IMG/VR virus record: IMGVR_UViG_3300025646_000162
Coordinates: 1 to 35,653 of that record
Direction: 5' to 3' (one strand)
From: a virus
Length of the DNA stretch: 35,653 bases
A program made the position numbers and the translations under genes. The notes below the pieces were generated by a model. The model worked only from the letters and a program-made list of their open reading frames with translations. It ran no database searches and had not been told where the DNA came from. How positions within the stretch are numbered: the first letter of the stretch is position 1; the number at the start of each line of letters is the position of its first letter. This document shows, piece by piece, positions 2,965-28,080 of this stretch.

Positions 2965-5900
2965 ATGCCAGTACCGTTGAATGCAATTACTAGACCCTTA
3001 GCTAGAAGAGGGATTAAGTCCAGACTTACAGAGACTATTCACAGTTTACCAGAAAATTTTAGGGTTAAGCCTGAAAGTGCTGCAAATGAACTACAACGCC
3101 GTGGGCAGGTTAAACCTGAGGAAATGGAGTTCAGTGGCATGAATGATGCTATTGATGTCTATAAGGCTGAGCCTGGTGTAACTCCAATAACTAAGCAAGA
3201 GTTGGTAGAAATCGATGCTGGTAGAGAAGACTACCGGGTGGATATGCGCAGCTTCAATGAGAGTAGTTTAGATGAAATGGATGATCAGTTGATGTTTGGA
3301 GATCCTGCAAGAGGCTACTTTGAAATTACACTGCCAGACACTTCTCCTGACCGCTATGATATGCGTATTACTACTAATCCAAGGATTTCTGAGGCTAGCG
3401 ATGCTCACCTAACTAGTGAAGCTTGGTATGACGATTCCGGTAGACTTGTGTCAAGAGAAGACGAAGAAGTTCCTGGTGTAAACTTTTGGCGTCGACTGGA
3501 CTTTCTTAACCTAGCAGGTAGAGATACGCTACGAGTGCAAGAGTTGCAAGCGCCTATACATTCTAGACCCGGTGTACCTGCCTCTGACTTTGAAATTAAC
3601 CGCAAAAGCTTTGCTCATGAAGAACTTGGAGCAGAGTTATCTGCGTTTCATTATGACCATAACGAAGCTCTTAGAGAGCTGGAGCGCATTTCTGACTTTG
3701 GGCACTTAGACCCAGAGGATTTTGCTGCACATATCAAAGATGAAAAGCTAAAACTAGCTGCCAGGCAAAACTCTATAAAGGAGCAGAACCCGAATGCTAC
3801 AGTGCTTCCTGTAGCAGACACCGTATTAGCTGAAGCTCTTACTGCAAAAACTCAACGAGAATTCACAGAGATTTTAGAAGATATTAGAGCTAGATACCAT
3901 ACAGAACGAGTAGATCGTGTAAGGCAGTACGAGGAGGCAAGGACAGCCTTTAATAAGCTTAAACCAGCTTTGCCCCACGAAAAAACGTGGGTGCGTAAAG
4001 CTTTAGAGTTATCTGTGCTTGAGGCGGTAGATAACTGGCAGTCACAAGTAGCTGTGCCAATTCGGGGTTACGGCATTGAAAAACTGCACCGGTCTGCTGG
4101 AGTGCAACAGGCGGTGTATGAAGAGCAAGTTCCTGCGCAAATGAAAAAGATTGTAAAAGATCTTAAAGGTCAAGGTATAGATGTAGAATATACTACGTTT
4201 CAGCAGATGGCCCCGGGGTATACCAAAGTATTGCCGGACGATATCGACGCTGACGCTGTACGTCTTGCTAAGGCCACACTAAAAGCCCCGACTGCTTCAT
4301 CCTTGGATAAGGAACAAGCGAGGCATGCACTGCAGGATAAGAAGGCTAGAGCAACATTCTACGTTTCTTTTATGGCGTCTTCTAAGGATGCTTTACAACT
4401 AACTAGTTCTCCAGTAGAGATGCTATCCCATTATGGGGCGACCTTAGACGAGATTAGCCTTGCAGCAGAACGTTACAGAACTTTTAAGCTGCAGGATACT
4501 AGAAACGCTACTACCTATGCGGCTATCAGATTGCCTAAACCTGGCAGGCGAGGTGAAAACTTACCTTCTCCGTCTTTCGAGTTATATGCTAAAGCGCTAC
4601 CTGTTACGGCCGCGACATTAATGGCAACTACACAGTCTGAAGATGCCATGGCAGCATTGTCTCCTGAGGTGCAACAAGAAATTGACGCAGCTTTTGCGCA
4701 TCCAGATATCTCTCCAAAAGACGTTATGGAGCAATTAACACAGTATGAGGGGTTCTCTCCAGCTGAAGCCAGTAAGGCAGCTAAAGAGTACGCGCTACGG
4801 ACTAAAGCTGATTTAGTTAATGCTGGACTCAGTGAAGAAGAGGCAATACAAGAATTGATTAATGAAGGGTTTAGTCCACTGTACTTTACTCCAACCTCTG
4901 AGCCTGGTGAGCCTGCGTCATTGGACGTAGAACCAGTTACAACTCCAGGCAATTTAGAGGTTATTAAAGAAGCTGGAGTACCTGATATTCAAGAGCTGGT
5001 TAATAAGTCAGATGCAATGCACTTTTTACCCTCTGATATGTGGACAATGCTAAAACCTATCGTCTCAGAGTTGTATAGTACTGTGCCCTTTATCGGTTTC
5101 GACTTTGCTACTAAAGAAGATCAAATCTCAGCTATGCGTTACTCTTTAGAGCTTACAGCTAAAGCGCAAGAGACTTTACAGCGCTTTGGCATTGAAGCAG
5201 AGCTAAGAGACATTGATGGTTCTCAAGGACTATATGCAAAGAATCCTGAAACAGGTGAGTGGGAAGAAGCTACATCAGGCTGGGTAGAAGCTTTACTTGA
5301 TGGAGTAGTTAATGCTCGTCAAGAGATAGGTCTTGGCATAATGGGTAGCATCATTGGTTCACGTGGGGGTCCTATAGGTGAAAAGGCAGGTTCCGCTATT
5401 GGAACAGCTTTAGGTCGTTTTGAAGACCTGCATAGACTGTCTAAAGAGCTTAAGATGGCGGAAGGGATTAACGAGCGAGTCTATGCCAGACAAATGGTCG
5501 AAGCAGGCATGCTTGGAGTATTTGGGGATGTAATCATACGTTCTACAGTAGCTCCACTAGTTAAGTTTGGTGGTAAGTATAGTATGAAGGCGTTGCGTGG
5601 CACCATGAACCAAGTGCTTAAGCTATTTCCTGATAACCAAAATGGCGCTAGAGAAGTATTACTTCGCGAACTACATGTCACTGAAGAAGAAGCTACTGAT
5701 TTGATGAAGCGTTTAGCTAAGTTGACTGGCGTGCCGTATAAAAGCACTACTCAAGAATTGATAGCTAATCTTCCTCAGATGCTGCCAGGAGGCCAAAACA
5801 TAGCTGCAACTGTTAATGCATTAGACCCTGGTGCCGGTAATGCCTATGCTAAAGCAGTAAGAGAGCGGGCAGAAGCTTTCGATAAGCTGCTAACTGACGC

Positions 5901-7464
5901 AGATCCACAGATGGTTCCTATCGTATTAAAAGACGAGTTGGATGAGCTAATTGATACTGTACAAGGCGGTTATCGCATTATCCGTGACACAGGCCGTGAA
6001 GAGATGCGTCATACTCCATATCACTTTGATATGAAGAAGTTAGCTATTGAGCCTATGCTTAATCGTGTAAAAGGTATTATTCAGAATCCTGCTGTGCTTG
6101 ATCAGTTTAAAGGTATCTTGCTTAAGATTGAAGCGGCCTCACAAACACGTGACTTTGGTGCACTGTTAGATTTGCGCCAAGCTATCTCTGAATTCAAGAC
6201 AAATAAGAAGATCTTGAAAGCTGCTAATAAACAAGAGGTGGACCGTGTACTTAAGTCTATTGACGCAGAGATAGCTCATGCTGCCAATCGTCATATGAAA
6301 GACGGAGCTACATGGGTACATAACTATCGTGCTACTCGTCTTGAAGTAGCTAAGTTGAACCGTATGTACGATAACATTATCTTCAAGCAATTGATTAAAC
6401 CTGGTATTGACCCTGTTGCTGTAGTCAAAAAGTCTTACAAGCATTTAAGTGCACAAGACGGTACTTTTGAAGAGATTTCTGCTAAGTTAACTCCTAAGCT
6501 ACGGCATGCTTATGAGAAGGCTATGCTTAGTGAAGCTTTTGATAAATTTAGTTTAAAGCAAGGACAAGGAGCAGCGGCTGTGGACTGGGTTAAATTCTCT
6601 GCTGAGTTAGAGACTAAAGGCTTTAGGGATCCTAAAGTTAAGGAGATGAAACGCCTAGCAAGAGAGTTTGCGCAAGTATATCAGAATGACATTAGCTTAG
6701 CTACAGCTACTTCAGGTATTTCTATTCCACGTAACCAGTCGTATTTAACAACTAATATAGTTACACGCTTACATTTTGAAGCAGCCTCTGGTATTATGGG
6801 TTATCTTAAAAGGATGCGTAGTACTGATGTAGCTAAGTATTCGTCATTGGTTGTGCATGCAACTAAGTTCATGAAAAACCCTGCACAACTAAAATCAATG
6901 AAAGCTCTCCTTGAGCAAGTTAAAGAAGACCCACAATTAGCTAGTCAAATTGAACAGTTGCACTTTAAGTGGGCTGAGCATGGAGCTAATCAGCCACAGA
7001 TAGGTAAAGGTCCACTTAAAGTAGAGGTGTGGGGCAAAGAGAACACTAAGTCCACTAAAGGTCCTATCACTGAAGGCCAACGTTATATGTTAGATGAGAA
7101 GTCTTCTAAGAAACGTTTTGGTGAAGCTTCTGTGCGTGAGATTAGCTATCATCGTATAGCTAAGTATCAAGATATAGAGGATGTGCTTGGAACTGGTTGG
7201 GATATTGAAGACGTTCGTGTCAATAAAAAGAATGTAATTCAAAAGCTTCAAGACAAAGGATTTCAAGGAATTAACATTGGTGATGAAGTGGTTATGTTTC
7301 CTTCTACTGGTGCACCAAGTGCAGAACGTGGTGCTTATAAACCTCGTAAGACTGGTGAAACACCTGATACAACTTATCATCAAATTTATCCAGAACTGCC
7401 TAGCGGAGACTTTACTCCACCTAGTTCAGCTAAGGATATGACTAATTATACTAATTGGAGATAA
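2965..7464 (+). CDS. Giant internal virion / ejection protein with polyvalent-protein domains
   Basis: A 1499-aa protein. The start at 2965 has GAGG six bases upstream. The N-terminal third resembles large polyvalent phage proteins that are packaged and ejected with DNA. About residues 115-200 look like the family's degenerate 'LP...lhieElQSD' segment (here DTLRVQELQAPIHSR). About 340-410 resemble the 'W..L.LK..L..Av..g.d.v' segment with an invariant-type PHEKTW. Residues near 790-815 form a Gly-rich stretch (MGSIIGSRGGPIGEKAGSAIG) typical of glycine-zipper helices that could insert in a membrane. A long helical domain follows (about 830-1330). The C-terminus (about 1355-1470) ends in VIQKLQDKGFQGINIGDEVV followed by MFPS, which recalls the ART-PolyVal fold found at the end of such proteins. 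It is probably injected into the host. Domain assignments are from memory of the families and are tentative; the internal-virion role is inferred from size and position. Confidence 0.65.
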   Translation: MPVPLNAITRPLARRGIKSRLTETIHSLPENFRVKPESAANELQRRGQVKPEEMEFSGMNDAIDVYKAEPGVTPITKQELVEIDAGREDYRVDMRSFNESSLDEMDDQLMFGDPARGYFEITLPDTSPDRYDMRITTNPRISEASDAHLTSEAWYDDSGRLVSREDEEVPGVNFWRRLDFLNLAGRDTLRVQELQAPIHSRPGVPASDFEINRKSFAHEELGAELSAFHYDHNEALRELERISDFGHLDPEDFAAHIKDEKLKLAARQNSIKEQNPNATVLPVADTVLAEALTAKTQREFTEILEDIRARYHTERVDRVRQYEEARTAFNKLKPALPHEKTWVRKALELSVLEAVDNWQSQVAVPIRGYGIEKLHRSAGVQQAVYEEQVPAQMKKIVKDLKGQGIDVEYTTFQQMAPGYTKVLPDDIDADAVRLAKATLKAPTASSLDKEQARHALQDKKARATFYVSFMASSKDALQLTSSPVEMLSHYGATLDEISLAAERYRTFKLQDTRNATTYAAIRLPKPGRRGENLPSPSFELYAKALPVTAATLMATTQSEDAMAALSPEVQQEIDAAFAHPDISPKDVMEQLTQYEGFSPAEASKAAKEYALRTKADLVNAGLSEEEAIQELINEGFSPLYFTPTSEPGEPASLDVEPVTTPGNLEVIKEAGVPDIQELVNKSDAMHFLPSDMWTMLKPIVSELYSTVPFIGFDFATKEDQISAMRYSLELTAKAQETLQRFGIEAELRDIDGSQGLYAKNPETGEWEEATSGWVEALLDGVVNARQEIGLGIMGSIIGSRGGPIGEKAGSAIGTALGRFEDLHRLSKELKMAEGINERVYARQMVEAGMLGVFGDVIIRSTVAPLVKFGGKYSMKALRGTMNQVLKLFPDNQNGAREVLLRELHVTEEEATDLMKRLAKLTGVPYKSTTQELIANLPQMLPGGQNIAATVNALDPGAGNAYAKAVRERAEAFDKLLTDADPQMVPIVLKDELDELIDTVQGGYRIIRDTGREEMRHTPYHFDMKKLAIEPMLNRVKGIIQNPAVLDQFKGILLKIEAASQTRDFGALLDLRQAISEFKTNKKILKAANKQEVDRVLKSIDAEIAHAANRHMKDGATWVHNYRATRLEVAKLNRMYDNIIFKQLIKPGIDPVAVVKKSYKHLSAQDGTFEEISAKLTPKLRHAYEKAMLSEAFDKFSLKQGQGAAAVDWVKFSAELETKGFRDPKVKEMKRLAREFAQVYQNDISLATATSGISIPRNQSYLTTNIVTRLHFEAASGIMGYLKRMRSTDVAKYSSLVVHATKFMKNPAQLKSMKALLEQVKEDPQLASQIEQLHFKWAEHGANQPQIGKGPLKVEVWGKENTKSTKGPITEGQRYMLDEKSSKKRFGEASVREISYHRIAKYQDIEDVLGTGWDIEDVRVNKKNVIQKLQDKGFQGINIGDEVVMFPSTGAPSAERGAYKPRKTGETPDTTYHQIYPELPSGDFTPPSSAKDMTNYTNWR

Positions 7465-7466
7465 TC

Positions 7467-8714
7467 ATGTCAAGACAATTAGCTAAGACTAAGTTAGGGT
7501 TTGAGCAACAATTATTAGGTTTAACTGACTTAGTAGTAGATGCTTGGGGCAGACAAAAATTTATTGAAGACTACTCTGTCTTTAGAGGTTTGTTTACTTA
7601 TGATATTCCTGCATCACAATGGAAAGAATATCAAGCTGGAGTAGAGCAAAGCACTTTTAGTAACGCCATAGTCACTGATGGAGGGTTAGATTTAACTTCT
7701 ACTACTGGTATAACTACACAGTTAGTTAGTAAACGTCATCCTAGGTATCAGCCCAATAAAGGACACCTGTATTCTACTGCAGTATGGCTACCTACTGAAA
7801 GCGAGGCTAGCACAGTACGTGATTGGGGTTTAGGTTCTGCGGCTATGGGTAACTATGTATGCTTTAGGTTTACTAATGATAAACTGTACGCAGTAGTTGC
7901 TCGCGATGGAGTAGAGACAGTACAGCAAATTACAGAACATGCAGACGGTTGGGTAAACTTTGATTATACTAAAGGGCACCTATACGACATTCAAATGCAA
8001 TGGCGTGGAGTTGGCAATTACTTATTTTACGTAGACCAAGAACTAGTTGCAGAGATAGAAAACCTGGGAAGGTTAGGTGAAGGTGAATTACCTACACTAA
8101 CTATCCCAGCTTTGCCAGTACTGTGGTCAGTAACAGGTAATGCTAGGCTACGAGCAGGATGCGTTGATGTGGCTAGCGAAGGTGGTGGAGGTAACAATAC
8201 TATTTATCGATCAACTACAACTGGGATGGCCTTGATTAATATTAGTAATACTTACTCAGATGGTATGGCCACTTTAGCTATTCGAGTGCCTCCTACTTTT
8301 AACGGTATTTACAATGCTAGAGATGCTTTGTTAAACAGGATTACCACATTTTGTAGGGATCAAGCGGTGACTGGGGTATGGCTAACCAGGGACGCAACAG
8401 TGTTAGGCGGTATCTCAGCTAACGTAAATCCATTATTAGGTTGGGCTCCTGTAAGTGGAGATTCTAATTTACAGTATATGAAAGGTGGCACTGGTACAAC
8501 TCTAACTACAACTTTTGAGACTAATCATAGTAGTGCTAACTCTAGCCTATTAGTTGCAAAACGCGTACCACTAGATACCCCTAGTATTTTAGATAACCCA
8601 GGAGCTAAGAGTGATTTCTACTTAACTAATGGAGATTACATTATAGTTACAATATTGCCTGATGGAGCTAATAAAACAGCAGGCACTACAATTGAATGGT
8701 CAGAAGAGGTTTAA
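7467..8714 (+). CDS. Putative tail/virion protein with lectin-like (jelly-roll) domain
   Basis: A 415-aa protein. I chose the ATG at 7467, preceded by TGGAG, because the longer frame would use an internal TTG overlapping the previous gene. Residues about 30-230 alternate beta-strands with many aromatic and Gly/Asn turns (SQWKEYQAG, GHLYSTAVWLP, FRFTNDKLYAVVARDG, HLYDIQMQWRGVGNYLFYVD). This is the style of concanavalin A/LamG-like jelly rolls in phage tail and capsid-surface proteins. The second half (about 240-415) is a separate Thr/Asn/Gly-rich beta domain. It lies between the ejection-type protein and a tail-appendage gene, so a surface or tail role is likely. I cannot name the family, and carbohydrate binding is only a possibility. 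Confidence 0.6.
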   Translation: MSRQLAKTKLGFEQQLLGLTDLVVDAWGRQKFIEDYSVFRGLFTYDIPASQWKEYQAGVEQSTFSNAIVTDGGLDLTSTTGITTQLVSKRHPRYQPNKGHLYSTAVWLPTESEASTVRDWGLGSAAMGNYVCFRFTNDKLYAVVARDGVETVQQITEHADGWVNFDYTKGHLYDIQMQWRGVGNYLFYVDQELVAEIENLGRLGEGELPTLTIPALPVLWSVTGNARLRAGCVDVASEGGGGNNTIYRSTTTGMALINISNTYSDGMATLAIRVPPTFNGIYNARDALLNRITTFCRDQAVTGVWLTRDATVLGGISANVNPLLGWAPVSGDSNLQYMKGGTGTTLTTTFETNHSSANSSLLVAKRVPLDTPSILDNPGAKSDFYLTNGDYIIVTILPDGANKTAGTTIEWSEEV

Positions 8715-8718
8715 TAAC

Positions 8719-9285
8719 ATGGCGGTCCGTGAGATAGTAAAACAATTAGCTGGTACTGAAGATCTGTTACTAGGTGAAGGTATAGTAACACAACAAAGGG
8801 ATAGTGGTGAACAAGAGCTTACTAGAGTGGGTGCGGCTAGTCTTCCATTTGACACGCGTAGTCCTGATATACGTAGTATTAAAGATGAACTATTAGTTAA
8901 AGTTCGTCACTATGATTCTACGTTGAGTATGGTATCTGATGTAGCTAATGCTACTATTGGTGAGCTATGCTTTACATCAGGTCTTACAGCTGGTGATCAG
9001 CAAGGCACTTGGTGGAATGTAGTAGACGCCACTTCTGTTACTACAAATGGAGTAAATATCTTAGCTGGGTCTGCAACTAAAAGTTTTGTTAAGCTAAACT
9101 CAGTAGGACTTATAGCTACGACTGCAGAGTTGGCAGACATAACAGACCCAATCAATACGGTGAATAAAGCTGCGGGCTTACAGGTGTTTAATACATCTAC
9201 CAATAAACCTGTGTGGTCGTCTGGAGCTACAGCCGGAGCAGTTTGGGTTAACTCAGGTGGTACTACTGAACACACACCTGTTTAA
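8719..9285 (+). CDS. Small tail-appendage protein with head-binding N-terminus
   Basis: A 188-aa protein. I start it at the ATG at 8719, five bases after the upstream stop and with AGAAGAGG just before it; an in-frame ATG at 8662 lies inside the upstream gene and is unlikely. The first about 40 residues (KQLAGTEDLLLGEG, then ELTRVG) match the N-terminus of the tail-spike-type gene at 35021 (KQLAGLEDLLLGSG, then EITKIN). This identifies a shared anchor by which two different appendages probably attach to the tail. The rest is beta-rich and Gly/Thr/Ser-rich, ending GTTEHTPV, with no receptor-binding or enzyme domain visible. It may be a fibre base or a plug. Its 3' end overlaps the convergent VRR-NUC gene by 23 bp. 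Confidence 0.65.
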   Translation: MAVREIVKQLAGTEDLLLGEGIVTQQRDSGEQELTRVGAASLPFDTRSPDIRSIKDELLVKVRHYDSTLSMVSDVANATIGELCFTSGLTAGDQQGTWWNVVDATSVTTNGVNILAGSATKSFVKLNSVGLIATTAELADITDPINTVNKAAGLQVFNTSTNKPVWSSGATAGAVWVNSGGTTEHTPV

Positions 9286-9541
9286 TTAAGTCCTTCACAT
9301 CAGCAAGAGAGTACGCAAATATTGCGTACCCTCCTGCTTCTTTAACACGCTTTTGTTTAAGTTGCTGGAGACGCTTCTCAGTGTCTCCAACTCCTTTCAC
9401 TTCAATAAGACAGAACTTACCTTCAATACAAGCTACAATATCGCTCTCACCGTTCTTAGAAGCTGAGACAATATTAATAGCTGGATACTTGCATGCTTCT
9501 AAGTAGTCCAGTATTAGCTTTTGAAGTTTAGAGCCTCTCAT
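9263..9541 (-). CDS. VRR-NUC domain nuclease
   Basis: A 92-aa single-domain protein of the VRR-NUC branch of the PD-(D/E)XK nucleases, which cut branched or virus-replication DNA intermediates. Visible motifs: an N-terminal helix with LDYLEA, NGESDIVACIEGKFCLIEVKG carrying the catalytic D and ExK, then LQQLKQKRVKEAGGYAIFAYS with the family's Q...AGG helix-strand element. The length is typical for stand-alone VRR-NUC proteins (about 90-110 aa). The start overlaps the stop of the 87-aa gene (ATGA), so they are coupled. As the last gene of the minus-strand replication block it converges on the tail gene. A role in resolving replication or recombination forks, or in processing ends with the neighbouring helicase and ligase, is likely. 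Confidence 0.8.
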   Translation of the reverse strand: MRGSKLQKLILDYLEACKYPAINIVSASKNGESDIVACIEGKFCLIEVKGVGDTEKRLQQLKQKRVKEAGGYAIFAYSLADVKDLIKQVCVQ

Positions 9542-9935: not shown

Positions 9936-11150
9936 TTATTTGTCTATCCTCACACAGGAGAATCTTGGAAGGAACAGACTATAGCTATTGGTAGCTGTAT
10001 CTAGGATTACTGAGTTATATTTAACTTCAATAGTCTTGCCTTCATAGCCGTCTAGTGTGCGATCATAGTCAGACAGTCCAGACCCAACATTGACAGTAAC
10101 AAATTTACCTTCAACTTCACCTACTAATTGCAAAGCTCCTATCATTCCTTCATACTTGCCTGCACCTTCTTCCCAACCGACACAAGTTAGATCAGCTGTT
10201 TTAGTTTCCTTCATTTTGACCCAATCTTTACTCCGTTTGAAAGTATACTTATGATCCTCTCGTTTAAGTATCAGTCCTTCATATCCATCAGCTATTAGCT
10301 CTTTATAAAGCTCTTGTACTTCATGTGTGTTTTCACATGGCATAGTAAATGCAGGCACAAGATGGTCGCTACGAACGCACTGTAAAATGTGAACCATATG
10401 GGTATACCTGGATTTATATTTAGTTGGACATGACCCCCTAATAAACTCATGGTAGTGCATAGCATCAAACACATTGAAACGAAGCTCTTCTTCTGCTATT
10501 CGCCCTCCATGTATAGCTGAGTTAATTTTACCAGAAATAGAGGTACGATCTTCAGACTTGCCAGACAAAAACGTAACTTCTGTGTCTAACATGAACCCGT
10601 CGACAGGTAAGCTATTAAATAGATGCCCTGTGACCGGTAAGTTAACTACTTTACCATTGCGCGTCTTAAATACAGCAGGCTGTCCAGGAGGTTTCAAAAT
10701 AACTATGCGTACACCATCATATTTAATCTGAGCTAACACAGGAAATTTCACTTGTTCAAGCGGCACCTCTTTAGCTAGTTGTACTTCAAACTGTGGAATA
10801 GCCCCAGGATACTCTGTATTAAATAACTTAGCTGATACTCCGCAATCTAAGTCCTTATTACAAATTAGCTTAATGAGGTTTCCGTGTTGCTGGGCAAAAT
10901 CTTCTACAGCATCTCGTGCTGCGTTACCAGTAAGCTCACGAGCAGCTAATTTATCTAGCAGTTGAAACATTTCAACACAGGGTTCACCTAAGCCAGTGTG
11001 GGGTACTGAAGAGAACTTAAGCCCATATTGCTTATCTTTATCATAAGCGTATTTAAAAGTATGGATTAACCAAGGATGATTACATTGCCGAATGAGCCTT
11101 TGCTTCTCAGATCTAGCAGAAGCTTTTTTTAGATCGTGTAGGATCTTCAT
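9936..11150 (-). CDS. ATP-dependent DNA ligase
   Basis: A 404-aa ligase that seals nicks in DNA using ATP. Motif I is KYDGVR with the adenylated lysine K143 (QIKYDGVRIVIL), motif III is near 188-192 (LDTEV), motif IV is YEGLILKRED and motif V is WVKMKE. The N-terminal about 130 residues form a T4-like helical domain and the C-terminal about 90 an OB fold. The length lies between T7 (359) and T4 (487) ligases. The start overlaps the stop of the SF2 helicase (ATGA). With the Fe-S nuclease, helicase and VRR-NUC it makes a repair and end-processing group. It would join lagging-strand fragments made with the phage's own polymerase. Confidence 0.93.
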   Translation of the reverse strand: MKILHDLKKASARSEKQRLIRQCNHPWLIHTFKYAYDKDKQYGLKFSSVPHTGLGEPCVEMFQLLDKLAARELTGNAARDAVEDFAQQHGNLIKLICNKDLDCGVSAKLFNTEYPGAIPQFEVQLAKEVPLEQVKFPVLAQIKYDGVRIVILKPPGQPAVFKTRNGKVVNLPVTGHLFNSLPVDGFMLDTEVTFLSGKSEDRTSISGKINSAIHGGRIAEEELRFNVFDAMHYHEFIRGSCPTKYKSRYTHMVHILQCVRSDHLVPAFTMPCENTHEVQELYKELIADGYEGLILKREDHKYTFKRSKDWVKMKETKTADLTCVGWEEGAGKYEGMIGALQLVGEVEGKFVTVNVGSGLSDYDRTLDGYEGKTIEVKYNSVILDTATNSYSLFLPRFSCVRIDK

Positions 11151-12385
11151 AATTGATTCCTCATGAATAATGCGTCAACATAGTTAACTTTGTTTAATGA
11201 AACAGATTGGTAGACTTCTTCACTGATGCCATCTTTAACTAATAAGAAATGGACTATTATAGGTTTATCTCTATGTTTGTTAGCTTGCCTGGCTCTACGC
11301 TGTGTGTGCCTGGCTGTAGAGAAGTCTTGACTGTATATAATTAAATGGTCAATATAACTAAGGTCCACGCCTTCAGCATAACTAGTAGCCTGCAGAATCA
11401 GAGCATGCTTGAAATGTTTCCTTAGTTTTTCACCTTCAACTATATAGTTATACATGATAGCAACATGTTCAGTGTCACCAAAGTGTTCTTTAATATAGTC
11501 AATCTTCTCTGTGTTAGGTAACTGAATAAATTCTGGCTTATCCACAGGATTACCTTTTTTATTCAGCACCTTAGTAACTTTCTTAGCTCCACCTCCTTCT
11601 AACATATGCAGAGTAGTTCGCAGTTTAGTGATAGTGTCGCATAGTATCTCGCCTTGATCTGTCTCCATTACCTTATGTTTCAATACGTCATTATATAGCG
11701 CTCTGGTCTCATCAGAGAGACTAATATAATGAATCTTATCAACGGGCTCATGTTTAAAATCTAAGGCCTTACGGGTCATTGTAAGGAACAGGTGTTGTGT
11801 CCTAGCTATAACCGCCTCGTCATGTACACGGTCCCACATTTCTACTTCTTTTTGATACAAGTATCTAGTGTAGGGTATGCCGTACACTTTATGCCATGCT
11901 TTATAGTCATGACAACCCGCCCAAGGTGACCAATCACTCAGCGCAAATTGATGATACAGCTGAGCATAGGTCTGTGCATGTGGAGTGGCTGAGATGTAGA
12001 TTATAGGCGTCTCATGCGTCTTAGTCCTTACCTGCATCCAAGTTTTAGACTTTTTAGGGAAACTACTGATATAATTATGGGCTTCATCTAAGATCACCAG
12101 GTCCCACTTATCACGTTGGATTTTACTAACTTGATGATAGTTAGTGACATAGTAATTCTTAGCGGTATCGAACTGAGCTAATAATTCTTTCCACCCATCT
12201 AATGGCTTACCTTTCTTAGTAAGGATTAAAATAGACTCTACATTAGCTTTCTCAGCTATAAGTAAAGCTATTAGTGACTTACCCGTACGCTCCTCCATTG
12301 CTAAGTAGACTATCATATTATCTTTGAGAATATGATAGCCTGACTCAGCAAAACTAAGCTGATGGTCCCATGGAGCTATAGCCAT
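11147..12385 (-). CDS. SF2 DEAD/DEAH-type helicase
   Basis: A 412-aa superfamily 2 ATPase. The ATG at 12385 is chosen over an upstream TTG at 12418; it overlaps the small membrane-protein gene. Motifs: Walker A in an unusual form (MEERTGKS rather than GxGKT), Walker B/DEAH as ILDEAHNYI, motif III SATPH, then the C-terminal RecA-like lobe with motif V-type ATSYAEGVDLSYIDHLIIY and motif VI RHTQRRARQANKHRDKP. It is similar in build to phage UvsW/Rad54-like helicases but shorter. It probably remodels forks or recombination intermediates with the adjacent nuclease and ligase. Motif VI with RRARQ supports ATP-dependent activity. Confidence 0.88.
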   Translation of the reverse strand: MAIAPWDHQLSFAESGYHILKDNMIVYLAMEERTGKSLIALLIAEKANVESILILTKKGKPLDGWKELLAQFDTAKNYYVTNYHQVSKIQRDKWDLVILDEAHNYISSFPKKSKTWMQVRTKTHETPIIYISATPHAQTYAQLYHQFALSDWSPWAGCHDYKAWHKVYGIPYTRYLYQKEVEMWDRVHDEAVIARTQHLFLTMTRKALDFKHEPVDKIHYISLSDETRALYNDVLKHKVMETDQGEILCDTITKLRTTLHMLEGGGAKKVTKVLNKKGNPVDKPEFIQLPNTEKIDYIKEHFGDTEHVAIMYNYIVEGEKLRKHFKHALILQATSYAEGVDLSYIDHLIIYSQDFSTARHTQRRARQANKHRDKPIIVHFLLVKDGISEEVYQSVSLNKVNYVDALFMRNQL

Positions 12386-12534
12386 ATCGCAGCCAACCCT
12401 GTGGGTACTAAACACCAAATGGTCAATACCGCTATCCGGTCACTAACAGTTGTGATGTATGGGCTAGACGCGTATAACCATAAAACCGCAATTACTGCAA
12501 CTAAACAGTTTGTTAAAAAAATATCAACCCACAT
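12376..12534 (-). CDS. Small two-pass membrane protein, 52 aa
   Basis: A short gene missed by length cut-offs. It starts at the ATG at 12534, seven bases after GCGAGG, inside the end of the HTH gene (11-base overlap), and it ends at 12376 inside the start of the helicase (10-base overlap). This nesting, with its good ribosome binding site, fits a coupled gene. The product starts MWVDIFLTNCLVAVIAVLWL and continues YASSPYITTV. It then has a second hydrophobic stretch (RIAVLTIWCLVPTGLAAIWL) ending at the C-terminus, so two membrane helices are predicted with a short periplasmic or cytoplasmic turn. No family is recognised. Roles such as superinfection exclusion, membrane anchoring of replication or lysis control are speculation. 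Confidence 0.65.
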   Translation of the reverse strand: MWVDIFLTNCLVAVIAVLWLYASSPYITTVSDRIAVLTIWCLVPTGLAAIWL

Positions 12535-12752: not shown

Positions 12753-13565
12753 TTATTCTCCGTGTACGTAAGGGCAACCTTCATTGTACAAAGTACAATA
12801 CTTGTCTGAACAAAGGTAGTATTTAGGGTTACCGCGGAATAGCAAGTTAGGGGCTATACCACTGTGAAAAGCCTCTAATGTGTCTAACATAGTATTGATT
12901 AGATACTTAGCTCGTGGCACGTTTGACTCTAGCTCAAGCACATGTCCTGTAGGAGACTTAGTAAGAGCTACACCTTGAATGGTTGCACGAGATACATCAA
13001 AGCCTTCTGACTCAGCTAGGAATTTATACGTAGATTGCTGGGTGACGTACGACTGAGCTACTGGTTTACGCTTAGAAGTCTTAACGTCTGATAATACGCC
13101 TGGAGCAATGTAGTCAATAGTACCACCAACATTGCTAACTATCGGATGTGCCACTTCAATGTCAATGCGGTGCTCAACCTTAATAGGAATATCAACAAAA
13201 GGTACAATATCTTCTACAAAAGCTTTGGAGCCTTGTATTACTTCATTCTCAGCAGTACGAGAGTTTTCACCTGGGTCGTATTGAAGATCAGTATCCAGGT
13301 TTTGGAACTCTTCAATAGCTGCATCACACATCATAGTGAGATTAACCTCTTCTTTATTCTGTGTGAGTTGAGCTTCTTTCCACATCTCTTCTACGCCCTT
13401 GTGAATAGCTGTGCCAATAGCTGCACGAGCATTAGGAATAGTTACACGGCCTTCAAGGAAAACCTTAGCCCATTGAAAAGGGCAATTAAAGAAAGTATCA
13501 ATTGCAGAAGGGCGGATACAGATAGCTTTGCCATCGTAGTCAATATCAGTAGTAATTTTAGACAT
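12753..13565 (-). CDS. Cas4/RecB-like PD-(D/E)XK exonuclease with Fe-S cysteines
   Basis: A 270-aa nuclease of the RecB/Cas4 branch. The N-terminal motif SAIDTFFNCPFQWAKVFL provides the first cysteine. The C-terminal YLCSDKYCTLYNEGCPYVHG provides three more, in the order expected for a 4Fe-4S cluster closing the nuclease fold. Between them: GTAIHKGVEEMW (the H of motif I), VGGTIDYIA then VLSDVKTSKRKP (catalytic D and DxK), and SYVTQQSTYKFLAES (motif with Q and Y). The ATG at 13565 has GAGG 9 bases upstream; the ATG at 13571 is also possible. It probably resects ends for phage recombination, with the SF2 helicase and ligase downstream. Cas4 adaptation functions are unlikely, since no CRISPR genes are present. 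Confidence 0.87.
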   Translation of the reverse strand: MSKITTDIDYDGKAICIRPSAIDTFFNCPFQWAKVFLEGRVTIPNARAAIGTAIHKGVEEMWKEAQLTQNKEEVNLTMMCDAAIEEFQNLDTDLQYDPGENSRTAENEVIQGSKAFVEDIVPFVDIPIKVEHRIDIEVAHPIVSNVGGTIDYIAPGVLSDVKTSKRKPVAQSYVTQQSTYKFLAESEGFDVSRATIQGVALTKSPTGHVLELESNVPRAKYLINTMLDTLEAFHSGIAPNLLFRGNPKYYLCSDKYCTLYNEGCPYVHGE

Positions 13566-14181
13566 TTTCATTTGCCTCAGTAATAGTTAACAAAAAACCT
13601 ACATTAGTAAACACATGCCAAAGATGTGGCATACCAGAGTCAGGATCATTTATCTCACCTTGACGCCAGGCTGCTAAGTGCCTACGCAATGCCGCATAAT
13701 AACGATCAACTTCACCATGTTGCCAATTATTAGGTTTATATTTCTTAGCTCCATGAGTTAAGACTTTAGCTAAAGCTAACTCCCATTCTGGAGGTATAAG
13801 ATCATAGCGAACTTTGTCATCATCGAACTTAATAAACTGTTCGCACACATGAACTGATACGGGATAAGGCGCAGAGTTAATTACCTCAAGACATTTATTA
13901 CATGGTGGCTGAGTGACATACATAGTAAAAGTACTATCTGTAGTGTACTCCGGAGCTAAGCCATAATAGAACGCATCTTCAATAGCCATAGCTTCAGCAT
14001 GAACCACATCAGAAGGACACTTATCTTGTTTAGTGCACATGCAGGTCATAGAGTTGTTATACCCGCGACCTACCACTGCCTCTATTTTATCTAAGACAAT
14101 AATTGCCCCAACCTTTCGCTCATTACACACAGATTTTTTAGCTTCATCACGAGCTAATTGCTCAAACTTTTTTGTTAGCAT
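13558..14181 (-). CDS. Fusion: dCMP-deaminase-like domain + dNTP pyrophosphohydrolase-like domain
   Basis: A 207-aa protein with two enzyme domains. Residues 1-118 have the zinc-dependent cytidine deaminase fold: RKVGAIIV, VVHAEAMAIE with HAE at 61-63, and PPCNKC at 92-97, the Zn-binding H and C residues. Residues about 120-207 match the phage dATP/dGTP diphosphohydrolase (MazZ-like) N-domain: KVRYDLIPPEWELALAKVLT, HGAKKYKPNNW, ALRRHLAAWRQGEINDP then DSGMPHLWHVFTNVGFLL. The ATG at 14181 is chosen because GGAG lies seven bases before it; an ATG two codons earlier sits too close. It overlaps the MazG-like gene and the nuclease gene at either end. Deaminating dCMP to dUMP and hydrolysing a dNTP to dNMP would both reshape the dCTP/dTTP pool. 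The actual substrate of the second domain is unknown. Confidence 0.8.
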   Translation of the reverse strand: MLTKKFEQLARDEAKKSVCNERKVGAIIVLDKIEAVVGRGYNNSMTCMCTKQDKCPSDVVHAEAMAIEDAFYYGLAPEYTTDSTFTMYVTQPPCNKCLEVINSAPYPVSVHVCEQFIKFDDDKVRYDLIPPEWELALAKVLTHGAKKYKPNNWQHGEVDRYYAALRRHLAAWRQGEINDPDSGMPHLWHVFTNVGFLLTITEANENV

Positions 14182-14692
14182 TTGCATGCTCCTGTAGAAT
14201 TAATTGAAGTCGTGGTTCTGGTGGAATAAAACTAGAACCTTTACCTATGTTAGCTTTAACACTAGGATCAGTCTTTTTAACTGACTTAGAGTCATTACTA
14301 TCACAGACTATTAGCATGGCTTTGTTAAATAAAGCCTCAGATAAGCCAGATAAATCTTCACAAGCATTAATAATGCAACCAATAGTTCCAGCCATTAATT
14401 TAGGCTCATCCGCAGAACAAAAGCGATCGACATACCAATCTAGAAATGCTTTAGGTGGAACTTTAGTATAGATACACTCAACCATATCAAGCTTGTTCAT
14501 CTTCCACAAAATGCCTACTGCGATATAAGTAAGGTCACAAAGAGCGTCTAGCCGATCTACAGGTGTTTGTGCTGTTTCATACTCCATTAGCTCTTCTAAT
14601 AGAAGGTCTTCAGCTAATTGCTTATTAAAGACTTGGTCGTAACGTTGACGATTCCAATCTATAATACGTAGCACAACTAAATTACTTAACAT
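14162..14692 (-). CDS. MazG-like (all-alpha) NTP pyrophosphohydrolase
   Basis: A 176-aa helical protein of the PRA-PH/MazG-like superfamily, which hydrolyses nucleoside triphosphates to the monophosphate and pyrophosphate. The metal-binding helices are visible: EDLLLEELMEYETA (E33, E34, E37) and RLDALCDLTYIAVG (D49, D53). The C-terminal SND element (FNKAMLIVCDSNDSKSVKKT) matches the 'NMSK' segment of phage members, followed by a PPEPRLQLIL tail. The start has AGGTG five bases upstream. It lies between the thymidylate-synthase-like gene and the deaminase fusion. A dCTPase role like T4 gp56 would fit that company, feeding dCMP to the neighbouring enzyme, but substrate identity is inference. Confidence 0.82.
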   Translation of the reverse strand: MLSNLVVLRIIDWNRQRYDQVFNKQLAEDLLLEELMEYETAQTPVDRLDALCDLTYIAVGILWKMNKLDMVECIYTKVPPKAFLDWYVDRFCSADEPKLMAGTIGCIINACEDLSGLSEALFNKAMLIVCDSNDSKSVKKTDPSVKANIGKGSSFIPPEPRLQLILQEHANANKKV

Positions 14693-14700
14693 GTTTTCAC

Positions 14701-15522
14701 CTATGCGTGTAATTTAAAAGAAATGGAATCTAGTTGATCCCAAGTAGTGACTCTAAAAGAATCATTGTTAAACTCTTTATAGTCAGTAATCATTTGTAAC
14801 TCATAAACAGGGTAGAAACTCTCTGGATTAGTTACTCTATCTGAGTATCGTTCCGCTCTAGCTAAGTACTCAATAGCGCCAAAAGCATGATCCCCATAAA
14901 TATGACAGTCCCCCAATTGCATTGTTACTGCCCCAGGTTTAAGATTAGTTAGGTAAGCCACTAAGATAATAAACATATTAGCTAACATAATATCTGATGG
15001 TAACCCTATCATTACATCTATAGATCTTTGGATCCATACCATGTTCAGCTCACCATGCTGAGTCACATAGAACTGATACGCATAATGACAACAAGGCAAA
15101 CTAGACTTAGCTATATTAGTAGGATCCCAGCCACTAATCAAATGCCTACGACTATGTGGATTTAACTGTAAGTCAGAAATAACATTCTCTAACTGGTTTA
15201 CACCTCCGAAGTCAATCCATTTATTACCATAATCTACATTAAGTGAGCCGTCAGGTTTAGCCCACTGTTTCCAATAGTTACAACCTTCAATCTCAAAGTC
15301 TTGCACTGTTTTAGGTCCACGTAGAAATGCCGCCATCTCACCAATAACCCCTTTAGGGTATAACTTGCGCATTAAAGGCACTGGAAATTTATCGCCTACA
15401 TAGTACTTTAGTTGGTGGCCAAAGATACTACTGGTTACAGCATTACGACCTTCAGAGACTTTTCCATCATCCAGTATAGCACGTAGTAAACTACAATATT
15501 GTACTTCTAAATTGTTATTCAT
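14701..15522 (-). CDS. Thymidylate-synthase-fold dCMP (hydroxy)methylase candidate
   Basis: A 273-aa protein, about the length of ThyA (264). Catalytic features are present: Arg pair R125/R126 (PHSRRHL), Cys145 in SLPCCHYAYQF, QRS-x-D at 165-169, and H207/Y209 in DCHIYGDH. The decisive change is at residue 177 (bases 14992-14994, GAT). The motif is LPSDI where thymidylate synthase has LPFNI. Asn177 selects dUMP in E. coli TS. Asp at this site is found in T4 dCMP hydroxymethylase, and the N177D change in TS shifts it to dCMP. So the substrate is probably dCMP, and the product 5-hydroxymethyl- or 5-methyl-dCMP. Its start overlaps the exonuclease stop, and the MazG-like and deaminase genes follow. 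Plain thymidylate synthase remains the alternative. Confidence 0.8.
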   Translation of the reverse strand: MNNNLEVQYCSLLRAILDDGKVSEGRNAVTSSIFGHQLKYYVGDKFPVPLMRKLYPKGVIGEMAAFLRGPKTVQDFEIEGCNYWKQWAKPDGSLNVDYGNKWIDFGGVNQLENVISDLQLNPHSRRHLISGWDPTNIAKSSLPCCHYAYQFYVTQHGELNMVWIQRSIDVMIGLPSDIMLANMFIILVAYLTNLKPGAVTMQLGDCHIYGDHAFGAIEYLARAERYSDRVTNPESFYPVYELQMITDYKEFNNDSFRVTTWDQLDSISFKLHA

Positions 15523-16049
15523 TTTTGCATCTCTCTAAAAATATTAAGGATATGATGAGTTTGCCAAATCGCATCATGCAAAGCATTATGGTTAGTTAAT
15601 TCAGGCAGTTCTGGATGCTCTGCTTTAACTAAATGTTTTAATGTACGGTAACACCCGTCTTGGGTAAAATGCCATGGAGCTTTTAAACCATTATTTTTAT
15701 ACGCAGAGCGCAAAATCACATTATCAAAAGTGGCACCGTTCCCCCAAACTACTGGTTTGCTAGGCAAACTATTAATAAAGGCTGTAAACTTTTCTAAAGC
15801 TTGTAATAACCCTGTACTAGCGTTATATACCTCTCTTCTAGCTTCTTCTGATTGTTGTAGCCACCACAACACAGTATCGCCATTAACTTTTCCATTGTGT
15901 TCCATAGCATCAGTTAAGTTTACTTTGACGTAAAATTCACGGTGTATTCCGTTAGTATAAGTAAACGCTGTAGCCCCAATAGCTATAATAGCAGCATCAT
16001 TGTTAGTACCCATAGTTTCTAAATCTAACATTACATGTTGGTCTTTCAT
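15519..16049 (-). CDS. DEDDh 3'-5' exonuclease (DexA/RNase T-like)
   Basis: A 176-aa DnaQ-like exonuclease. Exo I is VMLDLETMG (D8, E10) and Exo II is WGNGATFDNVILRSAY (Asp). Exo III is NHNALHDAIWQTHHI, with the H...D pair that marks the DEDDh type. WW near residues 62-63 and the length match phage DexA and Rv2179c-like single-domain exonucleases. It follows the DNA polymerase directly (stop at 16052, two-base gap) and its stop overlaps the next start (ATGA). The polymerase already carries a proofreading domain, so this enzyme may trim ends, degrade single-stranded or host DNA, or process RNA. Confidence 0.86.
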   Translation of the reverse strand: MKDQHVMLDLETMGTNNDAAIIAIGATAFTYTNGIHREFYVKVNLTDAMEHNGKVNGDTVLWWLQQSEEARREVYNASTGLLQALEKFTAFINSLPSKPVVWGNGATFDNVILRSAYKNNGLKAPWHFTQDGCYRTLKHLVKAEHPELPELTNHNALHDAIWQTHHILNIFREMQK

Positions 16050-16051
16050 AA

Positions 16052-17698
16052 TTATTCCTTAGTAAATTTATAGATGTGCTCATCTTCAATCTTACCCCAA
16101 TTAAAGCCTGCATAGACATCCACAGGCATGGGTAAGTCCTTAATCTTAGTTGAACGACAACACTCAAACCAAGCCTCTTGCATTGCTTCAGACATAACCC
16201 TAGCTACTTGTTCGTGAACTGATCTGTCATTGTCACATTCAAGAACCCAAGAGTCATGTACAAAGTTACAAACCTTAATATCACCTGGCAAACCTCTTAA
16301 CGCAGGCATCATGTAGTGTGTAGCTAGTTTAGCCACTTCAGCACCAAAGCCTTGCACTTGTATATTAAGATGGTCAGTCATTAGTTTGCCAACATAACGA
16401 CGACCAAGAGGTGTCTGCCAGGGTTGCTTCTTGCGCCAAGCAGCTATACCGCGTTGTTGCCAGGCATAGATACCAGTCCATAAGTTTTGCCACTTCTTCT
16501 TAATCATAGCTAACTCAGCTTCTGGAACTAATAGGCCTGCGTCTTTAATCAAGATAGACCCCAGCATGCCATGACTACCTCCATACAATAAGTTGAAGTT
16601 AGCTGTCTTAGCTACTTGCCTAGACGCTTTAATCATGTCTGCAGTATATTGGTGCAAGTCTTCGCCTGAACGGAATAGCTCTTCCATACGTAGTTCGCCA
16701 GTTATTGCGCAACCTCCACGTAGCTCTAATTGTGAATAGTCACTGTATATAAGTGATCTACCGCTGTCAGGCTCTACGCCAAAGACGTCTTTAGTTTTGC
16801 GTGGGATCTGTTGAAGGTTCTGGTCACCACAAGTACAACGACCTGACCTGGCTGAGGGTTTAAACCGACCATAAATGCGGCCAGAAGCAACATCAAACTT
16901 AGTTAAGAAGCTATTCTGTTTTATTAACTTGCGAACTTCATTAACTTGTGCGGCTCGTTCATTACCTTGCAAGGCAAAGGTAGCTAAAGCTAAACCGTCT
17001 GATTCGCTCTCACCGATGTATGGACGAACTTGTTGCCAGGAGTTAACATTAATAGGTAAAGCTAACTCATCAATGCGAGCTAGGTTAGATCTGTAACGGT
17101 TTTGCAACTCTTCCGCTAACACAGGCATACCATTTTGCTGAAACTCAAGACAGTATCTGGTAAAGAGAATGTCTAGCTTATAGCTAAAATCGTCTTGCAT
17201 CTCAGATAACTTGTCAAGCACTTCAAACATATGGAATACATCTAGCGCCGCATACATTTCTTGTGCAGGAGACAATAGACCTGACCAACTAGATTTCTGC
17301 AAATCTTTCTTGCTCAGCCCTGCTTGTTCATAAGGATCATAGCCTAAAACATAGCTAAGGACATCATCAAGAGTGAACTTCTCTTTAGTATAATAGTACA
17401 AACGAGACAAGTAAAATGTATCAATAAACTCACCAGGCAGCCAGTTAGCTCCTGTTTGAGTTTGGAGTACTGAAAAATCATAGTGCAGGTTATGGCCAAT
17501 CGGGGTCACTTCTTTAATGAAGTTAGCTAATGTGTATGGCTCAGGCTTACGTACTAGCTTAACTTCAGGCCAATGTGGCTGATAGAATTGAGCAACCTCT
17601 ATTTGACCATAGAAACCATCAGTTTCTGTGTCAAAAGCTATGGGTTGCTTTATGTTTGTTGAGGACATTACATCCTCAAGAGTAGTGAATGCGTACAT
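16052..17698 (-). CDS. Family A DNA polymerase with 3'-5' exonuclease
   Basis: A 548-aa replicative polymerase, shorter than T7 gp5 (704). Proofreading: Exo I IAFDTETDG (D23, E25), Exo II GHNLHYDFSVL (D74), Exo III YAALD (Y149, D153). Polymerase: motif A SDYSQLELR (D320), motif B RQVAKTANFNLLYG (R360, K364, F368, Y372), motif C FVHDSW near residue 475. Phe at the E. coli 762 position is common in virulent phages. No extra thumb loop for thioredoxin binding is evident, so it may work without that factor. The start at 17698 has GAGG five bases upstream. The SSB gene precedes it and an exonuclease follows it. Confidence 0.95.
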   Translation of the reverse strand: MYAFTTLEDVMSSTNIKQPIAFDTETDGFYGQIEVAQFYQPHWPEVKLVRKPEPYTLANFIKEVTPIGHNLHYDFSVLQTQTGANWLPGEFIDTFYLSRLYYYTKEKFTLDDVLSYVLGYDPYEQAGLSKKDLQKSSWSGLLSPAQEMYAALDVFHMFEVLDKLSEMQDDFSYKLDILFTRYCLEFQQNGMPVLAEELQNRYRSNLARIDELALPINVNSWQQVRPYIGESESDGLALATFALQGNERAAQVNEVRKLIKQNSFLTKFDVASGRIYGRFKPSARSGRCTCGDQNLQQIPRKTKDVFGVEPDSGRSLIYSDYSQLELRGGCAITGELRMEELFRSGEDLHQYTADMIKASRQVAKTANFNLLYGGSHGMLGSILIKDAGLLVPEAELAMIKKKWQNLWTGIYAWQQRGIAAWRKKQPWQTPLGRRYVGKLMTDHLNIQVQGFGAEVAKLATHYMMPALRGLPGDIKVCNFVHDSWVLECDNDRSVHEQVARVMSEAMQEAWFECCRSTKIKDLPMPVDVYAGFNWGKIEDEHIYKFTKE

Positions 17699-20815: not shown

Positions 20816-20973
20816 TACAGATCTCCATAGTTAGTTACAAACCATTCAGCGAAAATCCGCTTCTTACCTTGGATCTTACAGATAAGAATTCCAGGCTTTT
20901 TACGAATGTCTTTTTCCAGGACTTCGACTTCAGTTCTGTTTAACAACTTAACAGTTATAGACCTAATACTCAT
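20815..20973 (-). CDS. Hypothetical protein, 52 aa
   Basis: A small basic beta-rich protein: MSIRSITVKLLNRTEVEVLE then KDIRKKPGILICKIQGKKR and IFAEWFVTNYGDL. The ATG at 20973 is inside the end of denV (11-base overlap) with GGAG 10 bases before it. It overlaps the next gene by one base (TAATG). No family is recognised. Confidence 0.6.
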   Translation of the reverse strand: MSIRSITVKLLNRTEVEVLEKDIRKKPGILICKIQGKKRIFAEWFVTNYGDL

Positions 20974-21364
20974 TTGCTTTTGTCTCCATTTGTTCAAGAC
21001 GTTCAAAGATACGCGCTAAGTTTAACGCGATTGCTTTACCATCAGGCTCCCAGTCATGCATACAATACTTTGGTATGCCAATAACTAAGGAGTCTGGATC
21101 AGTAAACTGTACTTGTATACCACGCCGTTTACATTCAGCAATCAATTGTTTTTGACGCTTAAGTAAATAGCCACAGCGAGTATAAAAGAATTTCATATGG
21201 CCAGTGCCAAGCACATACTGGTCAGATTGTGTGTGACAAGGTAATTCGCCTTTCCCTTCAAGTGCTTTCTTTACAAGAGTAAAGATACGAGGCAACTCAC
21301 GATACTCAGCTAACAAGTGTTTGTCGTGTAGTATCTCAGGATCCACACAGTTGATACGTGTCAT
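20963..21364 (-). CDS. denV: Pyrimidine-dimer DNA glycosylase (T4 endonuclease V homologue)
   Basis: A 133-aa protein with the T4 DenV pattern over nearly its whole length. It starts MTRINCVDPEILHDKHLLAE then YRELPRIF, against MTRIN...DQHLMAEYRELPRVF in T4. Thr2 (the N-terminal nucleophile after Met removal), Arg3, His16, Arg22, Glu23 (catalytic) and Arg26 are all present. The later blocks LGTGHMKFFYTR and LKRQKQLIAECKRRG match T4 GAGHVTFFYD and LRKRQIELIAECLKRG. It removes UV-induced cyclobutane pyrimidine dimers by glycosylase plus AP-lyase action, protecting phage DNA in sunlit habitats. It has its own promoter (P2) upstream and heads the small-gene operon that ends in the Dda-like helicase. 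Confidence 0.95.
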   Translation of the reverse strand: MTRINCVDPEILHDKHLLAEYRELPRIFTLVKKALEGKGELPCHTQSDQYVLGTGHMKFFYTRCGYLLKRQKQLIAECKRRGIQVQFTDPDSLVIGIPKYCMHDWEPDGKAIALNLARIFERLEQMETKANEY

Positions 21365-24511: not shown

Positions 24512-25009
24512 TTAGGCAGCTTTCTCAGCAGAGGCTTTGACCATGTCCTCTTCGCTGATGCCAATGCCGTCAGCACGCGGATGGATCTTGGCACGACGCT
24601 TCTCGATCTTGTCCATCTCAGCCTTGATAGCTGAGGGCTCGATCTCACCAGTAGCGACTTTGGCCAGGAGCGCGTCCTTCTCGCTCTTGCTGTCACGCTG
24701 TTGCTTGGTCCAGGCAGCTGTGCCCTCTTTGCACATGTTGCTGTAGCCAGTAGGAGAGCTGGCCTTCTTGCCATACTCGACCATACCTTCACCTTCGCCA
24801 ACAGGCTCCCACATTTTGTGGTAGTAGCAGAAGATGTGGGTCACGTTGCCTGCATCGTCACGAATGACAGTAGAGGCGGCACGACCACCGCCACCAACTT
24901 TGGCAGCACAGAGTTCAGTTGCTTCGGCCAGGATAGAAGAGACTTTCTTGTCTTTGTTCTGTTCCAGGAATTCGATGAGAGGCTGGAAAGCCTTTTTTAC
25001 ATTAGCCAT
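24512..25009 (-). CDS. Conserved phage protein of unknown function, CYYHK family, copy A
   Basis: A 165-aa soluble protein, paralogous to the protein at 27578. Shared blocks: an N-terminal helix KKAFQPLIEFLEQNKDKKV, FCYYHKMWE (about 60-68), VEYGKKASS, GYSNMCKEGTAAWTKQQR and GEIEPSAIKAEMDKIEKRR. The conserved Cys/His residues (CYYHK and MCKEG) could form a metal site or fold core. I recall relatives in other marine and enteric phages, without function. It stands alone between promoter P4 with AGGAG and a strong TTCG terminator. Its G+C-richer codon use suggests very high expression, as for a host-takeover or DNA-coating protein (inference). Confidence 0.75.
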   Translation of the reverse strand: MANVKKAFQPLIEFLEQNKDKKVSSILAEATELCAAKVGGGGRAASTVIRDDAGNVTHIFCYYHKMWEPVGEGEGMVEYGKKASSPTGYSNMCKEGTAAWTKQQRDSKSEKDALLAKVATGEIEPSAIKAEMDKIEKRRAKIHPRADGIGISEEDMVKASAEKAA

Positions 25010-26790: not shown

Positions 26791-27235
26791 TAAAATAATT
26801 TTATCCTACATAAAAAAATTTTATTACGACTAGCGAATATAGAAAACTACTGGTGCTATTAGTGTGTGACAATGCATGCTTGTTAGTGCAAATCCAAAAA
26901 ATCCATTATAAATTATCTGGGCCATTTTGAGAAATTTTAATAAAATCAATAACTTAGACAAAAAGTACAAATCCAAAAAATCCAATATAAGGTTACAAAA
27001 TCTGAAAAATCCAAAATCCAAAGTTTTTCTTAATATATATAAATGATCTGACCCCTTTTTTCAATAATTGTGTTTTTAATTATTATATAAGATTTTGGAT
27101 TTATTATATTTTATATTGGATTTTTTGGATTTATACTAACAATATCGCACCAGACCCTCTTTTAGCTATTAGTTTGATAGAATACTGAACAGTATTATAA
27201 AATGACCACCTTTAGTTGCCACCAGGTTAGCACAT
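26791..27235. repeat. AT-rich non-coding region with ATCCAAAA repeats and inverted copies
   Basis: No convincing gene. A 21-bp unit built on ATCCAAAAAATCC occurs at 26890-26910 and 26969-26989 in the same direction (one mismatch) and, perfectly inverted, at 27112-27132. Looser ATCCAAAA copies lie at about 27005-27025, and GATTTTGGATTT at about 27091. The inverted copies bracket about 120 bp of very A/T-rich DNA. A 16-bp palindrome AATACTG-AA-CAGTATT is at 27181-27196. A replication origin or DNA-unwinding element is one possibility. Confidence 0.5.
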
Positions 27236-28036: not shown

Positions 28037-28080
28037 AATAATCACCTATAGTGTAGAAGTTAATAAGTAGATTGTATGTC

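Follow-up and report, generated by a model that had tools for sequence, protein, structure and literature searches.

Full replacement of cytosine by 5-methylcytosine has been documented in very few phages. The reference among them is Xp12, in whose DNA 5-methylcytosine takes the place of 100% of the cytosine (PMC7653180); AXL1, a phage of the same genus, has a similar restriction resistance, the mechanism of which was left open by its authors (PMC9206674). It is established (Hardy and Nalivaika 1992; Liu and Santi 1992; both cited in PMC8670742) that an Asn-to-Asp change at residue 177 turns thymidylate synthase (TS) to dCMP, with 5-methyl-dCMP as the product. The same paper found TS homologues with Asp177 to be enriched on metagenome contigs with modified cytosine, and position 147 to be a second site at which modified and unmodified contigs differ. 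In the dCMP hydroxymethylase of T4 (gp42), a ternary-complex study identified Asp145, which stands three positions ahead of the catalytic Cys and has Ser94 as its partner, as the residue that activates water, and the D145N variant makes no product; this enzyme is without the C-terminal tail by which the TS site is closed for hydride transfer (PMC6400193).

The window analysed here, 35,653 bases long, is an entire IMG/VR viral record that may cover only part of the viral genome. Its reverse strand encodes at 14701-15522 a protein of 273 residues that looks like an ordinary TS but carries the single-residue switch toward dCMP. The protein belongs to the TS superfamily (PF00303, E=2.2e-57), and its AlphaFold2 model (pLDDT 95.9, pTM 0.93) superposes on solved thymidylate synthases with a TM score of about 0.9. 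Translation of this reverse-strand reading frame bore out what the first-pass annotation had read from it, namely an Asp at residue 177 (codon GAT, 14992-14994) within the motif LPSDI and the retention of Cys145, R125/R126, Q165-R166-S167, H207 and Y209. Alignment places this Asp at the base-specificity residue, opposite Asn177 of E. coli TS and Asp179 of T4 gp42. The catalytic Cys145 lies in an LPCCH motif (residues 142-146; 15085-15099, reverse strand), the Leu142 of which stands where hydroxymethylases have Asp. The same protein is encoded by a contig from a separate metagenome (L014) whose DNA is 99.99% identical to the window over 27.6 kb, so Asp177 is no sequencing or base-calling error.

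The nearest annotated relatives of the enzyme, at 43-51% protein identity, are found in the podoviruses Edwardsiella KF-1/IW-1, Vibrio VPMS1, Pseudoalteromonas PH1 and Dickeya Amaethon, in two metagenomic podoviruses and in the SAR11 (Pelagibacter) phage Kolga; at the nucleotide level, our search returned no phage close to the window. The clade comprises Zobellviridae-like podoviruses, among them KF-1, VPMS1, PH1 and Amaethon, plus Kolga. Asp177 is present in 8/8 of the window and its annotated relatives. We took 80 further loci from IMG/VR with the patterns CNYW and PCCH, neither of which covers position 177, and with these the count rises to 87/88 clade members, against Asn in 81/81 ThyA-like viral enzymes sampled likewise, a frequency far beyond chance. 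The clade is divergent, with 39-49% identity to the window protein, and near-perfect conservation of Asp across such a group points to selection for this residue. In E. coli numbering, R126, R127, C146, H147, R166, S167, D169, H207, Y209 and W80 are invariant in all 88, for C146, H147 and W80 partly by construction, since the first two lie in one search pattern and W80 in the other.

The sole clade member with Asn177 (codon AAC) is encoded at 9998-10810 of record L072, which has a DHFR-like gene and is without a detectable PRA-PH pyrophosphohydrolase or dCMP deaminase. In this single case the enzyme appears as if reverted to an ordinary TS, and the switch of substrate thereby has a naturally occurring control. 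Each clade genome examined has one TS-family copy, and no ThyX or second TS was detected in these records, so the host would have to supply dTMP. In public records most genes of the clade bear simply the name thymidylate synthase. A further label, 'bifunctional DHFR-TS' at 329-1339 of MW202744.1 (L004), is probably a mislabel; the TS profile matches that record only at 8480-9295.

We then read two positions as a pair, residue 177 and the one that precedes the catalytic Cys by three, across the window clade (n=88), T4 gp42-like enzymes (n=81), ThyA-like enzymes (n=81), Xp12-genus enzymes (n=10) and SPO1 gp29. ThyA-like enzymes combine Leu with Asn (each in 81/81), the SPO1 dUMP hydroxymethylase gp29 Asp with Asn, T4-type dCMP hydroxymethylases Asp with Asp (Asp before the Cys in 81/81) and Xp12-genus enzymes Asn with Asp. 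The window clade combines Leu, in 88/88, with Asp. Taken as a rule, position 143 (E. coli numbering) would tell methyl from hydroxymethyl transfer, and position 177 uracil from cytosine.

This comparison bears directly on whether the window enzyme could be a dCMP hydroxymethylase of the gp42 kind, yielding 5-hydroxymethylcytosine DNA, as its Asp at the base-specificity position, shared with gp42, and the annotation of one relative (MW202665) as 'pyrimidine hmase' would allow. The rest of the T4 signature is missing: Asp or Glu three before the catalytic Cys occurs in 0/88 clade members, the equivalent of T4 Ser94 is Val, Ile or Leu in 88/88 where Ser or Thr would be expected, that of Val85 is Trp (Phe in two), and the 273-residue enzyme aligns through the ThyA C-terminus, tail included, with final residues that differ from the PVAI/PVAV of ThyA. 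Pfam and PHROG scans of the window found no glucosyl- or other hydroxymethylcytosine-decorating enzyme, and the DHFR neighbours of relatives, described below, can be understood only if the reaction releases dihydrofolate. On the residue signature, the tail and these neighbours we reject a hydroxymethylase as very unlikely. Because the T4 signature is absent in 88/88, a 5-methyl product is favoured and gp42 is not the right model. The first-pass annotation had left the choice between hydroxymethyl and methyl modification; the methyl half gains from the retained TS-type seal and tail, and the hydroxymethyl half loses ground with the missing signature. The clade keeps the TS-type Leu143, Trp80, Trp83 (Phe in two), His147 and C-terminal tail; with this site in place and the marks of a hydroxymethylase absent, the chemistry should be a TS-like hydride transfer, and combined with Asp177 it should give 5-methyl-dCMP.

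The Xp12 genus was represented by DLP4 and PaMx28, Xp12's own sequence (MT664984) not being part of the comparison. Like the window enzyme, those of Xp12 and its relatives (Bosavirus/Pamexvirus: DLP4, AXL1 and PaMx28) have Asp177 and neither Asp nor Glu at the water-activating position before the catalytic Cys, so that the window enzyme shares with them a TS fold of this class. The Xp12 genus also has a PRA-PH pyrophosphohydrolase and a dCMP deaminase beside its D177 enzyme, in a different gene order and, in DLP4 and PaMx28, with a DHFR in the gene set that the window does not have. The proteins themselves are only about 27-30% identical over part of their length, and the Xp12 type has Asn143, Phe83, Pro147 and a long insert where the window clade has Leu143, Trp83 and His147. 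E. coli ThyA, at 31% identity, shares with the window enzyme the fold, the catalytic Cys, the Arg cluster, His147, Leu143, Trp80, Trp83 and the tail, but has at position 177 the dUMP-selecting Asn in place of Asp. T4 gp42 (27% identity over 156 residues) has in common the family and the Asp at the base-specificity position, and differs in its Asp145, Ser94 and Val85, all three missing from the window clade, and in lacking the tail that the clade has. SPO1 gp29, also of the TS family, shows the opposite combination, Asp before the Cys with Asn177. The engineered N229D L. casei and N177D E. coli TS, laboratory-made dCMP methylases cited in PMC8670742, likewise join a TS site to a single Asn-to-Asp change; the window enzyme, unlike these mutants, occurs in nature, throughout a clade and within a cassette of nucleotide-pool genes.

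In a tree built without the discriminating columns, the window clade forms one branch (SH-aLRT 99), as do the T4-type (98), Xp12-type (100) and ThyA-like (94) enzymes, and the Asn/Asp state at 177 needs three changes. Separate origins of the window clade, Xp12 and T4 enzymes are therefore likely, and are put no more firmly because the tree is unrooted and has long branches. By function the window enzyme is predicted to work like that of Xp12; by sequence it belongs to a separate lineage and represents a different solution.

Around the enzyme gene, all on the reverse strand, lies a cassette of replication and nucleotide-pool genes. Upstream, a DEDD 3'-5' exonuclease (Rv2179c-like; 15519-16049, PF16473 E=1.2e-48) overlaps the start of the enzyme gene by 4 bases, and a family A DNA polymerase follows in the same operon (16052-17698, PF00476 E=1.9e-30). 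The next gene downstream (14162-14692) encodes an all-alpha NTP pyrophosphohydrolase of the PRA-PH/MazG-like type, a candidate remover of dCTP, which matches phrog_671 (E=6.8e-14) and, below the cut-off, PF01503 (E=0.0042), a profile that many relatives match above it. Its EExxE...D motif is invariant, and in 60/81 loci it is the next gene downstream of the enzyme. It is followed at 13558-14187 by a dCMP deaminase (PF00383, E=3.7e-12) with the zinc motifs HAE and PPCxxC, fused to a DUF5664-type domain (dATP/dGTP diphosphohydrolase N-terminal; PF18909, E=1.3e-30). Deaminase and DUF5664 occur together in 26 ORFs of the window and related loci, and in L055 the pyrophosphohydrolase, deaminase and DUF5664 are all part of a single ORF. 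The replication module continues with a PD-(D/E)XK nuclease (12753-13571, PF12705 E=4.9e-9), an SNF2/superfamily 2 helicase (11147-12418, PF00176 E=2.1e-7) and an ATP-dependent DNA ligase (9936-11150, PF01068 E=9.7e-16 and PF14743 E=1.6e-8). In all annotated relatives except Kolga the enzyme gene sits within a module of PolA, PRA-PH/MazG-like, PD-(D/E)XK, helicase and ligase genes, with the deaminase present in most.

The pyrophosphohydrolase tracks the Asp enzyme more closely than ordinary TS. With the PF01503 profile it is found in 25/37 D177-type records (23/35 of the clade, with the Asn-bearing L072 counted among the 35, and 2/2 of the Xp12 genus) against 2/42 records with ordinary Asn177 TS, a supportive contrast with no formal test, drawn from control phages that differ in kind and counts uncorrected for kinship. 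PF00383 finds a dCMP deaminase in 30/35 clade records; it was not detected in VPMS1, Kolga, G015 or G028, although the D177 enzyme is present there.

Several relatives place a DHFR beside the enzyme. In L058 a canonical DHFR occupies the slot after it (PF00186, E=9.7e-46), in L028 and L037 a DHFR lies about 2 kb downstream, and in the L039 genome it lies elsewhere. Six records have an unannotated protein of about 118-138 residues directly downstream of the enzyme (L020:10794-11204, L017:4849-5202, L051:9501-9914, L055:9997-10383, L059:10785-11183 and L072:10810-11220). Three members scanned gave no Pfam and no significant PHROG match, and for the 137-residue neighbour a PDB profile match was not significant (E=0.18). 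The predicted structure of this family of about 130 residues (pLDDT 76) had only DHFRs as its top matches (E about 1e-7, TM about 0.7), with an Asp-Lys pair conserved where DHFR has its catalytic Asp, and the family thus has a predicted DHFR fold that was visible only by fold comparison. Methylation, which releases dihydrofolate, would call for a DHFR partner, and hydroxymethylation, which releases tetrahydrofolate, would not; such a partner says nothing on whether dCMP or dUMP is the substrate. In the window itself we found no DHFR.

The earlier observation that no monophosphate kinase is present in the window stands after profile scans of the window, and none is encoded in the 3.1 kb of extra flank on a near-identical contig, so the host, or the product of a gene beyond the known approximately 38.8 kb, would have to phosphorylate 5-methyl-dCMP. 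Four lineages of the clade do have a dNMP-kinase-like P-loop (GKD) gene in the cassette (L033:10795-11316, the L039 group with L039:10804-11433, L060:11359-11853 and L030:11344-11826), with matches to phrog_139 (E=9e-13), to the Pfam DNMK profile (E=6.3e-4, below the cut-off) and to PDB 1dek (E=0.0025). A simple Walker-A scan had missed these GKD genes, which were found by reading the gene slots. The family phrog_38514 spans pyrophosphohydrolase-like and kinase-like parts, which suggests that fused versions of the two exist.

Taken together, we consider it probable that the enzyme is a dCMP methyltransferase of the TS family and that most or all of the cytosine in the phage DNA gives way to 5-methylcytosine, which blocks restriction. 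Asp177, in place of the uracil-recognising Asn, would select cytosine; Cys145 would attack C6 of dCMP, with the carbon coming from methylene-tetrahydrofolate; and the methylene intermediate would be reduced by the folate hydride to 5-methyl-dCMP and dihydrofolate, because the seal (Leu143, Trp80, Trp83 and the C-terminal tail) is kept and the water-activating Asp is absent. The pyrophosphohydrolase would clear dCTP from the pool and return it as dCMP, the deaminase would supply dUMP for the host thymidylate synthase, and 5-methyl-dCMP would reach the triphosphate through a host kinase here and, in some relatives, through one of the phage. The phage PolA, accepting the modified dCTP, would then put 5-methylcytosine in for most or all cytosine, and restriction would be blocked. 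The first-pass proposal of dCMP as the likely substrate is supported as an inference, in line with the published association of Asp177 TS homologues with modified-cytosine DNA (PMC8670742), and the earlier interpretation as a whole, partly supported, sharpens to a dCMP methyltransferase.

Some features call for caution as to the base. At position 147 the TS-type His is found in 88/88 of the clade, where T4-type enzymes have Thr and Xp12-type enzymes Pro, which counts against a dCMP methyltransferase; the laboratory Asn-to-Asp mutants kept the rest of the TS site, so His147 is compatible with dCMP use. The pyrophosphohydrolase resembles DR2231 (E=0.0095), a dUTPase, and in that role it would fit thymidylate synthesis and speak against dCMP as the substrate. 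The methyltransferase reading also has against it the lack of a kinase and a DHFR in the window and the Asn177 of L072. That the enzyme is a TS still using dUMP, with Asp177 tolerated and the cassette serving dTMP supply, is conceivable in view of a site that largely resembles that of TS: His147, Leu143, Trp83 and the fold are those of TS, the pyrophosphohydrolase, deaminase and DHFR neighbours fit dTMP synthesis too, and one clade member, L072, has Asn177. We nonetheless think it unlikely, given that Asp is almost perfectly conserved in a divergent clade, that Asp at this site disfavours dUMP in the family (PMC8670742, PMC6400193), that PRA-PH is rare alongside Asn177, and that the Asn member is itself without PRA-PH and deaminase.

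A somewhat smaller chance attaches to a two-step thymidylate route, in which dCMP is methylated, the deaminase makes dTMP from 5-methyl-dCMP and virion cytosine stays unmodified. The presence of the deaminase, two genes downstream in the window and frequent in the clade, makes such a route possible; it would need no kinase, and the lack of ThyX in the clade speaks for it. Yet the D177 enzyme persists in the four records without a detectable deaminase, the pyrophosphohydrolase is the steadier partner, and the Xp12 genus has a deaminase too while Xp12 DNA is wholly methylated. We give an equally slim chance to a mixed outcome in which methylation comes before deamination and 5-methyl-dCMP is partly incorporated and partly deaminated to dTMP, a single cassette then governing the pools of dTTP and 5-methyl-dCTP alike. 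That the TS homologue is catalytically dead or has been repurposed has nothing in its favour beyond the unusual active-site residue; the clade shows little or no variation in the catalytic residues, and the gene is kept in exactly one copy per genome, inside the replication operon, which makes this reading extremely improbable.

We therefore predict that the window phage, and a large group of its aquatic and marine relatives, probably make 5-methyl-dCMP for their DNA. If this is true, a large podovirus clade of wide distribution, with a SAR11 phage and several cultured isolates among its members, replaces its cytosine as Xp12 does, using an enzyme that probably evolved apart from those of Xp12 and T4 and that matches in nature what the Asn-to-Asp TS mutant is in the laboratory. 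A literature search returned no published restriction or base-composition data for any clade member.

Outside the cassette, the window encodes at 20963-21364 a T4 DenV-like pyrimidine-dimer glycosylase (phrog_1183, E=1e-41), and a DenV gene is annotated in VPMS1 too. Two genes, at 24512-25009 and 27578-28045, both belong to phrog_10459, and a 1499-residue ORF at 2965-7464 adjoins the portal gene and represents a family found in 34 of the loci compared. The near-identical contig extends the window upstream by 3.1 kb (L264:1-3130), where it carries unassigned genes and one that is GNAT-like, and differs from the window by one homopolymer T at 27056 and one C/T at 14244.
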